DNA of 64,000 bases from Clostridia bacterium (GTDB lineage Bacteria > Bacillota > Clostridia > Christensenellales > UBA1242): positions 283,563 to 347,562 of the forward strand of contig JAFUSR010000004.1 in the NCBI GenBank assembly GCA_017467585.1, read 5' to 3'. Made by a program: the position numbers and the translations under genes. A model generated the notes under the pieces. That model searched no databases and was not told where the DNA came from. It saw only the letters and a program-made list of their open reading frames with translations. Positions 33,453 through 39,031 of this stretch are shown here, piece by piece; the stretch's first letter is position 1; the number at the start of each line of letters is the position of its first letter.

Positions 33453-33944
33453 ATGAAGATAATTTATGTTCATCACGCTCACAGAGACAAAGGAAATCCT
33501 CCAAGCAAACACGACAACATAACAGCACTTGGTGAAGAGGATGCTGCTCTCACTGGCAAGATTTTAGAAATTGAAGTTGAAAGATATAAAACGCCAATTA
33601 AAGAAATCTATTCGTCGCCATATTTTCGTTGCAAAAAGACAACTGAAATAATCAACAAAAGTTTGAATTTGCCAATAATTTTTGATGAGCGACTTAATGA
33701 AATGGCTAGGGACGATGGCGAAACTTGGGTTCAAATGCAAGAAAGAATGCATGAAATGATTAAAGAAATTGTTTTTTCTCACAAAGATTCAGATGCTGTT
33801 GTTATTGTGACAAGTGGGGTAAATGTTGTTGCGTTTATGAATATTTGTTACAGACTCAAGCCAAGCGAAAACGCACCAATAATTTTTATTCCCAGCTGTT
33901 CACCACTAATATTTAACATAAGCAAAGAAAATTTTTGTAGTTAA
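33453..33944 (+). CDS. Histidine-phosphatase-fold protein with altered active site
   Basis: A 163-aa phosphoglycerate-mutase-like protein. The order of family motifs is visible: the first strand, an SSPYFRCKKTTEII segment (family: SSPxxRAxQTA) and a DERLNEM segment. However, the signature RHG is VHHAH here, and the second catalytic His normally found in a VSHG motif is replaced by VTSGVNV. It may be catalytically impaired or act differently. It lies 10 bases after the oxidoreductase gene in a likely operon. Confidence 0.6.
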   Translation: MKIIYVHHAHRDKGNPPSKHDNITALGEEDAALTGKILEIEVERYKTPIKEIYSSPYFRCKKTTEIINKSLNLPIIFDERLNEMARDDGETWVQMQERMHEMIKEIVFSHKDSDAVVIVTSGVNVVAFMNICYRLKPSENAPIIFIPSCSPLIFNISKENFCS

Positions 33945-33993: not shown

Positions 33994-34022
33994 TTGACTT
34001 TCAATAATAATAAATATATAAT
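33994..34022 (+). promoter_or_regulatory. Promoter of the cysS leader
   Basis: TTGACT (33994-33999), 17 bp, TATAAT (34017-34022). The expected transcript start falls at or beside the leader-peptide ATG at 34029. Confidence 0.8.
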
Positions 34023-34028
34023 AATGGC

Positions 34029-34058
34029 ATGAAAACAATAATCTGTTGCTCAAAATAG
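34029..34058 (+). CDS. Cys-Cys leader peptide of cysS (MKTIICCSK)
   Basis: A nine-codon frame, ATG to TAG, encoding M-K-T-I-I-C-C-S-K. The two adjacent Cys codons (34044-34049) are striking because Cys is rare, and the downstream gene charges tRNA-Cys. It starts at the predicted transcription start, so it would be translated from a leaderless 5' end. The role inferred is sensing charged tRNA-Cys by ribosome stalling. Confidence 0.65.
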   Translation: MKTIICCSK

Positions 34059-34138
34059 TTTATTTATGGTTTTAGCGACTGTTGTTTATTCATGATTTTT
34101 GATTAGCAAGTGGTCGCCACTTGCTATTTTATTTTTTT
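34045..34138 (+). promoter_or_regulatory. Transcription attenuator upstream of cysS
   Basis: Three mutually exclusive pairings can be drawn. 1:2 is GTTGCT (34045-34050, over the Cys codons) with AGCGAC (34074-34079). 2:3 is 34075-34083 with 34109-34117, nine contiguous pairs including three wobbles. 3:4 is the terminator, TAGCAAGTGG (34104-34113) with CCACTTGCTA (34117-34126), 3-nt loop, then a T-rich tail. A ribosome stalled at the Cys codons would free segment 2 to form the antiterminator. No T-box features are present. Confidence 0.65.
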
Positions 34139-34151
34139 ATTAGGAGTTTTT

Positions 34152-35543
34152 ATGGCATTAAAAATTTATAACTCACTCACAAAAACGAAACAAGAATTTG
34201 TTCCAATTGAAAAGGGACATGTTGGAATGTATGTGTGCGGACCAACGGTTTATGGCCCATCTCATGTTGGCCACGCAAGAACATATGTCAACTTCGACAC
34301 CATAAGAAGATATCTTATGGCCTCTGGCTATGCTGTTAAGTTTGTTGAAAACATAACTGATGTTGGCCACCTTGTTGGCGATGGAGACAATGGCGAAGAC
34401 AAAATTGCAAAGCAGGCACTAAAAGAAAACTTAGACCCATATGCAATTGCTTATAAATATGAGTGTATGTTTTTTGATTGCATGGACAAGCTGAACATTT
34501 TGCGTCCAAGCATATCTTGCAGAGCTACTGGCTTTATTCCAGAAATGATAGACATGGTTCAAACAATTTTAGACAAGGGCTATGGTTATGTTACTCCAGC
34601 TGGAAATGTATATTTTCGCGTGAGAGATTATCACAAATATGGTCAACTTTCTAACCGCAAGTTAGACCAAGCAAAAAGCGGGGAGCGAATTGAGGTTGCA
34701 GACGACAAAGAAAATCCAGAAGATTTTGCACTTTGGAAAACAGCAGAGGGTGGGCACATTATGAAGTGGAAATCTCCATGGGGCGTTGGATATCCTGGTT
34801 GGCACCTTGAGTGCTCGGTTATGAGCAGAAAATTTTTGGGCGACACATTTGATATCCATGGTGGTGGACTGGATAACATTTTCCCTCATCACGAAAGTGA
34901 GTTTGCCCAAAGTGAAGTTACTACTGGCAAACCTTTTGTGCACTATTTTATGCACAATAACTTGGTTACTGTTAATGGAACAAAAATGGGTAAGAGTCTC
35001 GGAAACTTTATCACTCTAGACGATTTGTTCACTCGTCACAGCCCAATGGCAGTTAGATATTTCATTTTAAACTATCATTATCGCAGCCCACTAGATTTTA
35101 ATGAAACCGAAATTACAAAAGCTGAGGAACAACTTTCTAAAATTTTAGAAACATATCAAAAAATCGCAAAAACCAACTCAAATGGCGCAAAAAACGCCCA
35201 AATTGATCAAATTTATGCTGATTTTGTTGCTGCAATGGATGAAGATTTTAACACGCCTCTTGCAATTAGTGAACTTCTTAAACTCACAAAACTTGCCAAT
35301 TCTGCGATTGCTGCAGGAGAGAACCTGGCTGGCTATAAAGAAGTTTTCGACAAAATGTTTTATGTGCTTGGAATTGATGTAAATGTTGTTGAAGACAAAA
35401 ATAATGATAACGAAGAAAAACTTCTCGGATTAATTTCTGAAATTCGAAATGAACTTCGTGCAGAAAAAAATTATGCACTTTCAGATAAAATCAGAGACAG
35501 TCTTTCAGTGCTGGGAATAGAAAGCAAAGATAGGAAAATCTAA
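34152..35543 (+). CDS. cysS: Cysteinyl-tRNA synthetase
   Basis: A 463-aa class I synthetase of normal length. Zinc-binding Cys29 lies in VCGPTVYGP, the HIGH-type motif is HVGH (38-41), WHLECS and HHE supply further zinc ligands, and KMGKS (278-282) is the KMSKS motif. It charges tRNA-Cys. ATG 34152 follows TAGGAG; an earlier GTG (34110) lies inside the attenuator hairpin and is rejected. Monocistronic, with its own promoter and a leader-peptide attenuator. Confidence 0.96.
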   Translation: MALKIYNSLTKTKQEFVPIEKGHVGMYVCGPTVYGPSHVGHARTYVNFDTIRRYLMASGYAVKFVENITDVGHLVGDGDNGEDKIAKQALKENLDPYAIAYKYECMFFDCMDKLNILRPSISCRATGFIPEMIDMVQTILDKGYGYVTPAGNVYFRVRDYHKYGQLSNRKLDQAKSGERIEVADDKENPEDFALWKTAEGGHIMKWKSPWGVGYPGWHLECSVMSRKFLGDTFDIHGGGLDNIFPHHESEFAQSEVTTGKPFVHYFMHNNLVTVNGTKMGKSLGNFITLDDLFTRHSPMAVRYFILNYHYRSPLDFNETEITKAEEQLSKILETYQKIAKTNSNGAKNAQIDQIYADFVAAMDEDFNTPLAISELLKLTKLANSAIAAGENLAGYKEVFDKMFYVLGIDVNVVEDKNNDNEEKLLGLISEIRNELRAEKNYALSDKIRDSLSVLGIESKDRKI

Positions 35544-35943: not shown

Positions 35944-36831
35944 ATGCAAAACGAACATTTTTATAAGTTAAGGCAAAATCAAGTGTTTAATGATAACTTA
36001 ATATGTTATGGAACACGAAAGACAAATGAAAAGAATGTAGACAATGAAATAATACTTCATTCTCCCAATAAAGAATTTCTATTAATGTTGAGCGAAAATA
36101 ATTGTGTGAAGTCGTCTAATTTAATATTCCTAACAATGGTCTTATCAAAGATGACTGAAAAAGGAATCAAAAGATATTATGATGAAGAATTTACAATGAC
36201 ATTAAAAGAATATACAAATTATAGACAAATTTCTGCAAACAAAGCAAGAGACAAAATTAAGGAAGACTTGAAAGTTCTGTTTGATATGTGCATTAGGATA
36301 AATACAAAAAATAGCCAAACAGATTTTAGAATAATTAGTGTAAAGAGTGTTATAAAAAACAACACTATCAAAATTTGGTTTACTAAAAAATTTTTAGACT
36401 ATTATTCGTCAATTCAATATTTTATGAACTTGCCAAAAGAATTATTTAGGATTGATGTAAGATATCACCCAAATACTTTTGGTATGCTATGGAAATTGCT
36501 TTATCACTACAATATTAATGAAAACAAAGGCAATAAAAGTAGTGATTGCTTATCTGTTATAAAATTACTTGAATATTGTCCTACTATTCCACATTATGAT
36601 GATAAATTAAAAGCACAAGGTGGACTAAATCAGCGAATTATACAACCATTTATTAGAGATTTGAACGCAATCGACATAATAGATTGGTACTTTTTAGATG
36701 AGCAAAATAACATTGTCGCAAAAGATTGCATTAAAACTTATGCAGATTTTGAATTGTTAAAGATAAAATTTAAGTGGACTAATGGTTATATGGTCGAGAA
36801 AAGCAAAAATAAGGACTTATCTCTTATGTAA
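35944..36831 (+). CDS. Rep_3-like plasmid replication initiator
   Basis: A 295-aa protein with the layout of Rep_3/RepB-type initiators: two predicted winged-helix domains (about 55-155 and 160-270), strongly basic, with the pattern YRQISANKARDKIKEDL followed by a beta wing. The strongest support is context. Four 22-bp iterons begin inside its last codons, an AT-rich stretch follows, and a primase-helicase is next. It would bind the iterons and open the origin. Direct family recognition is tentative. Confidence 0.6.
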   Translation: MQNEHFYKLRQNQVFNDNLICYGTRKTNEKNVDNEIILHSPNKEFLLMLSENNCVKSSNLIFLTMVLSKMTEKGIKRYYDEEFTMTLKEYTNYRQISANKARDKIKEDLKVLFDMCIRINTKNSQTDFRIISVKSVIKNNTIKIWFTKKFLDYYSSIQYFMNLPKELFRIDVRYHPNTFGMLWKLLYHYNINENKGNKSSDCLSVIKLLEYCPTIPHYDDKLKAQGGLNQRIIQPFIRDLNAIDIIDWYFLDEQNNIVAKDCIKTYADFELLKIKFKWTNGYMVEKSKNKDLSLM

Positions 36832-36904
36832 AAGAGCCTTATCTCTTATGTAATAGAAAGTTATCTCTTATGTGAGAGAGCCTTATCTCTTATGTGAGAG
36901 GTTG
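36817..36904 (+). repeat. Four 22-bp iterons (origin of replication)
   Basis: TTATCTCTTATGT recurs at 36817, 36839, 36861 and 36883, exactly 22 bp apart (two helical turns), with related filler (AAAGAGCC, AATAGAAAG, GAGAGAGCC, GAGAGG). The first copy overlaps the rep stop codon. An AT-only stretch with ATATTTAAA-type repeats follows (36950-36980) and could be the unwinding element. This is the classic layout of a theta-replicating, iteron-controlled plasmid origin. Confidence 0.82.
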
Positions 36905-36980
36905 AGAAAACTCCCTATTTATAAGGTATTTAGAGGGGTTGAGAAAATTCAATATATTTAAAATATTTAAAATATTTAAT

Positions 36981-37016
36981 GCGAATTGGCTCATTTTTAA
37001 AGTTTGAGCCATTCGC
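36981..37016. repeat. Long inverted repeat beside the iteron origin
   Basis: GCGAATTGGCTCA and TGAGCCATTCGC pair with a single-base bulge over 12 bp, with an 11-nt loop. It sits between the AT-rich stretch and the primase gene and could be a primosome or strand-initiation hairpin, or a terminator. Confidence 0.6.
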
Positions 37017-37066
37017 AAATTAAATTAAATCAATAATAAAAAACAATATTAAAGGAGATTGAAAAA

Positions 37067-39031
37067 ATGAATTTAGATAGAAAGAAGATTACAGATGATG
37101 AAATTGAAAGAGTTAAAGAACATATTGAAGATTATATGAGAGAAAAAGGATTACCTTTTAATAAACATTTTCATTGTATTTTAAAAGATCATAAAGATGA
37201 AGACCCATCTATGAGATATGACAAGGAATATCATATTTTAAAGTGTTTTGGTTGTGGTGAAGCCCTTGACATTTTTGATTTAGTTGCTTTAGATAAAAAT
37301 TTAAATAAAAAACAGGCATTTATCGAAACAATTAAGATGTATGAACCAAGATTATTAGATTACACCGAAACAAAAACAAATAAAAATGAAACAAATTTGC
37401 TCAAAATGTGGCAAGAGGCAGTTTTTAACAGTAAAGAGGCACTTGATTATCTTCATAGTCGTGGACTAAGTGATGAAACAATCAAAAAATATGGACTTGG
37501 TTATAACTCATCATTTTATGCAAAAGCAGATGATAAAACCTACACTTTCCCAGCAATCATAATTCCAAGAGAAGAAAACTGCTACACAGCAAGAAATATT
37601 AGTTGGAAACCAACAGACAATAAAGACCTAAGAATTAGAAAAATTGGAGCAAGCACAATTTACAATCTCAACCAATCTAATAACTCAGACAAAAGCTATT
37701 GCTTTATAGCCGAGGGCGAGTTTGATTGTTTGTCATTTTTAGAATTAGGCTATAATGCAATAGGTTTAGGCAGTTGCTCTAACTTCAATAAACTATTCAA
37801 TTCCAATCTTGACACATCAAAAACATACATATTATCACTAGACAATGACGAGGCTGGAAAAGAAACAGCAGATAAAATCGCAAATGAATTTAAAGTGCGA
37901 AATATTAAGTTTATCACATTTAATTACGGTGGGCTTATAAAAGACCCTAACGAAGCCTTAACAACCGATAAACAAGCATTTATCACGGGAATACAAGGTG
38001 TTTTAGACAATATGCAAGAATTGTTGAGCAATACCGAGAATGAAGAAAAAGAAAAATATAATAATTGCAGTAATTTAGGAATGCTATCCAAACTTGAAAA
38101 ATTTATTGAAGATACAAAAGACTTCATTCCTTATTCTACTGGTTTTAAGAACTTAGACACTTGCTTATGTGGTGGATTGTTTCCTGGATTAACGGTTTTA
38201 GGTGCTCCGTCTTCCACTGGTAAAACAACTTTCGCTTTACAATTAGCAGATAATATGGCTAAAATTGGCAAAGATGTGATGTTCTTCTCTCTTGAAATGT
38301 CGGAATTAGAGTTGCTTTGTAAGAGTCTATCAAGAATAACTTTTGAGAATGATGTAACGAGGAGAACGACAGCAAAAAGCACGAATGAAATACTATATGG
38401 ATTTCAATATAACCATTATAGAGATGATGAAATAGAGGCGATAAACAAAGCAAAAGAAGAATATTCCACTTATGCCAATAACCTATTCTTTTTTGAAAGC
38501 CCCGCATTAAATGTTCATCAAATAGATTCATTAATTGAAAAACACATAAGTTTAAGAGCGAAAAATCCAGTAGTATTTGTTGACTACTTGCAGATATTAG
38601 CACCAGTTGAAAAAAACAGCGATGTAAAACAAATTATTGACTACAACATAAGCGAATTAAAAAGAATAGCGAGAAAATATTTTATCCCTATTGTTGTTAT
38701 TAGTTCAGTTAATAGGCAAAGTTATGATGACAAAATGGAAATGACAGCATTCAAAAGTAGTGGTGGTATTGAATTTGGAGCAGATGTTTTATTTGGATTA
38801 CAATTTACCTCTATAACAAAGCCAACTTATAATAGCAATGGAAAGAAGTCAAAAGTAAACATTGAAGAAGAAAAATCAAAACCAATAAGAGAGATTTCAC
38901 TAGATATAATAAAAAATAGAAATGGTGAAACTTGTAAACTTATTGACTTTGAGTATAAAGCGAAATTTAACTTTTTCAAGGAGACCGATAGCGAAATAAG
39001 AACAAGTGCAAGGAATTTAGATGTTTTTTAG
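37067..39031 (+). CDS. Primase-helicase (CHC2 zinc finger, TOPRIM, DnaB-like ATPase)
   Basis: A 654-aa fusion of the T7 gp4 kind. The zinc finger region (about 35-75) has HCILKDHKDEDPS and LKCFGCGEALDIFDL. The TOPRIM core has CFIAEGEFDCLSF and ILSLDNDEAGKETA (about 220-275). The RecA/DnaB-type helicase has Walker A GAPSSTGKTT (about 382-391), the VMFFSLEMS motif and Walker B VVFVDYLQIL. One protein can thus prime and unwind at the element's origin, making the island less dependent on host DnaG/DnaB. Strong GGAG site; directly after the iterons. Confidence 0.88.
   Translation: MNLDRKKITDDEIERVKEHIEDYMREKGLPFNKHFHCILKDHKDEDPSMRYDKEYHILKCFGCGEALDIFDLVALDKNLNKKQAFIETIKMYEPRLLDYTETKTNKNETNLLKMWQEAVFNSKEALDYLHSRGLSDETIKKYGLGYNSSFYAKADDKTYTFPAIIIPREENCYTARNISWKPTDNKDLRIRKIGASTIYNLNQSNNSDKSYCFIAEGEFDCLSFLELGYNAIGLGSCSNFNKLFNSNLDTSKTYILSLDNDEAGKETADKIANEFKVRNIKFITFNYGGLIKDPNEALTTDKQAFITGIQGVLDNMQELLSNTENEEKEKYNNCSNLGMLSKLEKFIEDTKDFIPYSTGFKNLDTCLCGGLFPGLTVLGAPSSTGKTTFALQLADNMAKIGKDVMFFSLEMSELELLCKSLSRITFENDVTRRTTAKSTNEILYGFQYNHYRDDEIEAINKAKEEYSTYANNLFFFESPALNVHQIDSLIEKHISLRAKNPVVFVDYLQILAPVEKNSDVKQIIDYNISELKRIARKYFIPIVVISSVNRQSYDDKMEMTAFKSSGGIEFGADVLFGLQFTSITKPTYNSNGKKSKVNIEEEKSKPIREISLDIIKNRNGETCKLIDFEYKAKFNFFKETDSEIRTSARNLDVF

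Follow-up and report, generated by a model that had tools for sequence, protein, structure and literature searches.

How is the expression of cysS, the gene of cysteine--tRNA ligase, controlled in a bacterium belonging to the Clostridia? According to a survey of 2005, most synthetase genes of the Firmicutes are under the control of T-boxes and none is under classical attenuation (PMC1262725). The gene considered here resides in the window, by which we mean the whole stretch of 64,000 nt that was analysed (contig JAFUSR010000004.1 of assembly GCA_017467585.1, positions 283,563-347,562); the assembly of its genome, coded G000, comprises approximately 1 Mb. An earlier note on this DNA had claimed that cysS is governed not by a T-box but by an attenuator based on a leader peptide with two adjacent Cys codons. 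The analysis described here bears this out, since tandem Cys codons combined with competing hairpins recur in five further genomes, from two genera, and we consider it very probable, judging from the sequence, that the window leader acts as a ribosome-mediated transcription attenuator of cysS, sensing charged tRNA-Cys. The parts of this device, their order, the mutually exclusive pairings predicted between them and their recurrence in relatives were all observed. The features of the locus, all on the forward strand, are as follows.

33994..34022 (+): sigma-70-type promoter, TTGACT-17-TATAAT (-35 at 33994-33999, -10 at 34017-34022), read from the sequence
34029..34058 (+): leader ORF encoding MKTIICCSK and ending in a stop codon (ATG AAA ACA ATA ATC TGT TGC TCA AAA TAG), read from the sequence
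34045..34056 (+): segment 1, from the whole-leader fold; predicted to pair with segment 2 if the Cys codons are free of ribosomes
34069..34086 (+): segment 2, from folds with and without segment 1; common to the 1:2 hairpin and the antiterminator
34104..34136 (+): segments 3 and 4, intrinsic terminator, from a terminator scan, the fold and matching terminators in five relatives
34142..34146 (+): Shine-Dalgarno sequence AGGAG of cysS, read from the sequence and placed outside all predicted stems
34152..35543 (+): cysS, cysteine--tRNA ligase, 463 aa (TIGR00435, PF01406, PF09190)

Direct reading confirmed that a near-consensus promoter leads into the MKTIICCSK ORF. This promoter has 11 of the 12 consensus bases and ranks first among 39 promoter-like matches in the 30-40 kb region; its predicted transcription start (~34029) coincides with the leader ATG, located 6 nt past the -10 hexamer. 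The ORF is therefore probably leaderless, a feature that the earlier note overlooked. Its tandem Cys codons (TGT TGC) occupy positions 34044-34049. The identity of the downstream gene is well founded (491 bits with TIGR00435, cut-off 340). No promoter of cysS fits into the 25 nt separating the terminator from the gene, and transcripts initiated at the leader promoter can thus get to cysS only by readthrough.

Upstream of the leader lies a histidine-phosphatase gene (window positions 33453-33944), which is absent from that place in G002, another genome of the same genus. Behind cysS (35944-39031), we noted a gene with a weak match to Rep3-type initiators together with a fusion of primase and helicase (Toprim plus DnaB_C); an integrated plasmid or phage may thus begin downstream of cysS.

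Three mutually exclusive pairings had been claimed for the region behind the leader ORF. The pairing of 34045-50 with 34074-79 (1:2) was recovered in the whole-leader fold, where it is lengthened by 34052-56/34069-73, and the terminator was found as described, with a 10-bp stem (34104-34113/34117-34126) and a U tract (34127-34136); it is listed first among 12 terminator-like matches in the 30-40 kb region. The middle pairing (34075-83/34109-117) was close but had to be redrawn, since the antiterminator (2:3) is best represented by 34075-80/34112-117 plus 34082-86/34105-109 in the predicted fold. The 5' arm of the terminator thus doubles as the partner of segment 2. In the fold of the whole leader, the terminator forms together with the 1:2 hairpin (-28.7 kcal/mol, z -4.2, or z -5.1 with another 3' end), while folding without segment 1 and without the 3' arm of the terminator gives the 2:3 pairing (-13.3 kcal/mol, z -2.2). 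Since the fold with the complete terminator exceeds the antiterminator in stability, the switch must be kinetic, like those of known attenuators.

From these parts we infer translation of the leader, ribosome stalling, the leaderless start and a response to cysteine, according to the following scheme. The transcript would begin with the leader ATG or very close to it, and the nine-codon peptide would be initiated by a ribosome, probably without the aid of a Shine-Dalgarno sequence. When Cys-tRNA(Cys) is plentiful, the ribosome would clear both Cys codons, terminate and depart, upon which 1:2 would pair, the 3:4 terminator would form and RNA polymerase would halt ahead of cysS. When Cys-tRNA(Cys) is short, a ribosome stalled at UGU-UGC would hide segment 1, so that segment 2 would engage the 5' arm of the terminator (2:3), cysS would be transcribed and charging would be restored. 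The trp-operon-style logic ascribed to the locus in the earlier note holds as regards the three exclusive pairings, but not as regards a ribosome covering segment 2 from the stop codon. With its A site at 34056-58 such a ribosome would have its edge at ~34068, its reach being estimated from the general footprint size, and segment 2 starts at 34069; in the leaders of genus g33, described below, this segment is located even farther from the stop codon. Repression must therefore rely on ribosome release, with 1:2 then forming.

Leaders were compared in six genomes: G000 and G002, representing one genus, and G034, G223, G224 and G226, representing genus g33. In G002, whose cysS is 85% identical, a TTGACA-n-TATAAT promoter is followed, after six bases, by the ATG of an ORF encoding MEKLCCCKK and then by a terminator. 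The leaders of the two genomes have TAGTTTRTTTATRGTTTTAGCGACT in common and segment 2 retains GTTTTAGCGACT; the sequence upstream differs between them, whereas the leader itself is kept. Within g33, the leader is present in all four genomes in which the same type of cysS was found, and its peptides are MKKCCCN (G034 and G223), MKKMCCCN (G226) and MSEKVLNVCCCN (G224), each followed by a stop codon. In all six cases an ATG-started mini-ORF of 7-12 codons is accompanied by a promoter (of the TTGACA type in the five relatives), and a terminator is situated 45-62 nt past the leader stop codon and 21-25 nt ahead of cysS. Alignment of the leader among relatives, proposed earlier as a check, gave a favourable result: CC or CCC was retained within every peptide (6/6), the remaining residues show no conservation across the two genera, and no relative with the competing hairpins and without the Cys codons was seen.

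There is little sequence identity between the leaders of the two genera. When a covariance model built from the four g33 leaders was run against 309 genomes, these four leaders were the only convincing matches, and those of G000 and G002 were not detected, which indicates that the two genera share an architecture without recognisable sequence. A family-wide blastn search with the 153-nt leader pointed to G002 as the sole true relative. The other matches that were inspected proved to be AT-rich chance similarities, with the exception of one that led to the proS leader described below. In the g33 terminators, three base pairs are changed on both sides: a structural alignment, inspected by eye, shows that the stems AAGTGAGTAG/CTGCTCACTT, AGATGAGTAG/CTGCTCATCT and AAATGAGTGG/CCACTCATTT differ by compensated pairs (MAFFT places G224 one base off), six leaders being fewer than a formal covariation test needs.

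A ribosome placed on the Cys codons was simulated by removing the RNA to ~12 nt past the first A-site base at the first Cys codon and folding, for each leader, the remaining RNA up to the terminator loop. For each of the six, the predicted partner of the linker was the 5' arm of the terminator. When the linker alone was randomised 1000 times, with the ORF and terminator unchanged, an equal or better 2:3 pairing was obtained in 1-13 shuffles for five of the leaders and in 49 for that of G000. In five of the six, including the window leader, the predicted 1:2 hairpin includes bases of the regulatory codons and is in competition with 2:3. Equal or better pairing, for 1:2 and an overlapping 2:3 taken jointly, was reached in 0 (G223), 0 (G226), 2 (G034), 3 (G002) and 20 (G000) of 1000 shuffles. 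These counts and the z values of the whole window leader indicate more pairing than chance would give. The corresponding count for G224 is not valid, because its best 1:2 duplex sits elsewhere in the linker and does not overlap segment 2.

Is the regulator a T-box after all, i.e. a degenerate and overlooked one, binding uncharged tRNA-Cys directly with a Cys codon as its specifier? The surroundings would make this natural: in G000, four T-box-like leaders (40-88 bits) precede serS, pheS, thrS and ileS (genes assigned by eye), and in another family of the same order a T-box stands ahead of cysS (locus L020 of G042, ~1199-1419; 49 bits, E 6e-10, which is below the Rfam gathering score). The same model (RF00230) found no match at the cysS region of the window, either at the gathering threshold or at E values up to 5, and a T-box of the quality of the L020 one would have shown; nor did any other Rfam family give a meaningful match at this leader. 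Moreover, the transcript preceding cysS (~123 nt) is too short to accommodate both an antiterminator and a usual stem I, the UGGU in the arm of the terminator (GUGGUCGC) would mismatch the 3' end of a tRNA-Cys having U73, and in all six leaders the Cys codons belong to an ORF bounded by start and stop codons. We regard the T-box reading as largely refuted and hardly credible, in agreement with the original claim. A simpler possibility is that the terminator merely ends upstream transcription, the mini-ORF is incidental and cysS is constitutive, fed by some readthrough. Intergenic terminators are indeed common, and no terminator is listed directly after the upstream gene, which ends at 33944. 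It speaks against this that a near-consensus promoter is inserted between that gene and the terminator, with none possible behind, so that cysS depends on readthrough, and that the CC or CCC motif recurs in six of six leaders, the whole combination being found in none of ~100 other upstream regions of cysS. This makes an incidental mini-ORF improbable.

A different kind of objection leaves the RNA switch as it is and concerns only the signal: the peptide might be a nascent-chain sensor (responding to thiol or redox state, or acting as an arrest peptide) instead of gauging how far tRNA-Cys is charged. The side chain of Cys is redox-active, a run of Cys lies near the C terminus of every leader peptide, and sequence cannot tell such a sensor from a charging meter. 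The few residues made by the time of stalling would, though, be too short for most arrest peptides, conservation between the genera is limited to Cys, and the downstream gene is the very one responsible for charging tRNA-Cys. We consequently give this explanation a small chance, similar to that of an incidental mini-ORF, and retain attenuation governed by charged tRNA-Cys as the preferred reading.

An attenuator of this kind requires a leader-bound ribosome before the polymerase arrives at the terminator, which gives significance to the way in which translation of the leader begins. In G000, G002 and G224, 6 nt separate the -10 hexamer from the ATG; in G223, G226 and G034 the distance is 21-25 nt and includes a Shine-Dalgarno sequence. 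A leaderless start is therefore not common to all six leaders, and related leaders with and without a Shine-Dalgarno sequence constitute a natural test of its effect on the attenuator. In the G000 genome, an ATG placed 5-8 nt past an exact TATAAT opens at least 100 codons at 30 of 87 sites, as compared with 2 of 40 at a spacing of 13-16 nt (Fisher p 3e-4). The 5-8 nt set includes lepA-, uvrB-, ruvB-, recF-, tilS-, uvrC-, dus- and lgt-like starts, recognised by eye from the N-terminal sequences. The raw count of TATAAT-N5-8-ATG sites is mildly raised (107, versus 85 at shifted spacing); a reverse-pattern control (18 versus 107) overstated the signal, and for this reason the length of the ORF behind the ATG was used as the test. 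Leaderless initiation is thus likely to be common in this genome, and the cysS leader is consistent with it.

Of the 309 genomes in the family, approximately 30 were found to have cysS of the same type (with E values not above ~1e-148), and the leader is limited to the two genera. It is absent from G001, which belongs to the same genus as G000, and from other lineages of the cysS clade, and hence the element is not essential. Elsewhere in this cysS type the gene closely follows a MarR-like or flavin oxidoreductase gene and has no leader. At loci L324 and L326-L338 (genera g9, g14, g58 and g60) it stands directly behind a MarR-like regulator gene (assigned by eye), apparently forming one operon with it, under another mode of control. 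Two changes are required to place the leader on the cysS tree; there may have been two gains or, with more steps, a single gain followed by several losses (G001, G322, g64). Among ~100 other upstream regions of cysS, none combines an ATG mini-ORF, adjacent Cys codons and a terminator, and sampling of further cysS types across the family and the order revealed no Cys leader with a terminator, the T-box-like case of L020 being found among them. A family-wide search for adjacent Cys codons in leaderless ORFs returned, among the listed matches that were inspected, ordinary gene starts or sequences out of context. In G000 itself, ~100 TATAAT-N5-8-ATG sites yielded, besides cysS, no leader that has codons of the cognate type and, ahead of a matching gene, a terminator.

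A side lead concerns proS. At locus L157 of G025 (~1500-1690), a leaderless mini-ORF, MKTIKANFVPAPHT, ending in a stop codon, is followed by a terminator and the gene of prolyl-tRNA synthetase; a strong stem (CCAGCTCC/GGGGGCTGG) spans the Pro codons, and TTGTGTTG/CAACACGA may form an antiterminator. This leader is likely to be a proline attenuator. A survey of 30 proS-like loci did not reveal a second clear case: the proS leaders of G300 and G030 were rejected, their codons fitting proline poorly. In the latter genome (L291), the ORF ahead of proS, MQKIVRNIFNIPTTTTTE, resembles a leader and contains a single Pro codon as against five for Thr; a strong terminator is present as well. We tentatively raise the idea, to which we give somewhat less than an even chance, that this family of small-genome Clostridia employs leader-peptide attenuation, partly leaderless, beside T-boxes, cysS being not the sole case (L157 proS).

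How do these leaders compare with systems already described? T-boxes (RF00230), the usual device of synthetase genes in the Bacillota, sense tRNA directly, unlike the mechanism proposed for the cysS leader. In G000, a putative Cys-codon attenuator of cysS thus exists beside T-boxes of four other synthetase genes, which suggests that both devices can occur side by side and replace each other at individual genes. Classical leader-peptide attenuators are represented by those of trp, his and pheST in the gamma-proteobacteria, and of trpS and leuS in Streptomyces (PMC1262725). The cysS leaders resemble them in their regulatory codons, three exclusive pairings and intrinsic terminator, and differ in occurring in the Clostridia, in being leaderless in some cases and in having a stop codon too distant for masking of segment 2. 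The assumption that ribosome-mediated attenuation of cysS would be unusual in the Bacillota is supported in that T-boxes are usual there (PMC1262725); as a kind, attenuation of cysS is not unprecedented (PMC8632094). A search of the open-access literature, which excludes most subscription journals, brought up no description of a leader peptide ahead of cysS in the Bacillota. In the light of the Rhodobacterales and mycobacterial systems considered below, attenuation of cysS and leaderless poly-Cys leaders are known kinds, and what appears to be new is their combination in the Clostridia.

Leaderless short ORFs with contiguous Cys codons, responsive to cysteine, are known from mycobacteria (Canestrari 2020, cited in PMC9031893 and PMC13236596). 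As far as these citing accounts describe them, they share the leaderless poly-Cys mini-ORF and differ in belonging to the Actinobacteria, in controlling cysteine biosynthesis genes and in acting by translation attenuation; an earlier survey did not find a terminator at them (PMC1262725). The closest parallel is uORFC-8-2, a proposed Cys-Cys attenuator of cysS in the Rhodobacterales, known from 145 examples (PMC8632094, RNA Biol 2021). Here too, two adjacent Cys codons of a uORF lie within the first stem and a terminator precedes cysS, while the motif is confined to the Alphaproteobacteria, its Cys codons are usually at positions 14 and 15, and a leaderless start is not among the features described there (PMC8632094). 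The two groups of leaders are presumably convergent and, taken together, suggest that this way of controlling cysS was invented more than once.
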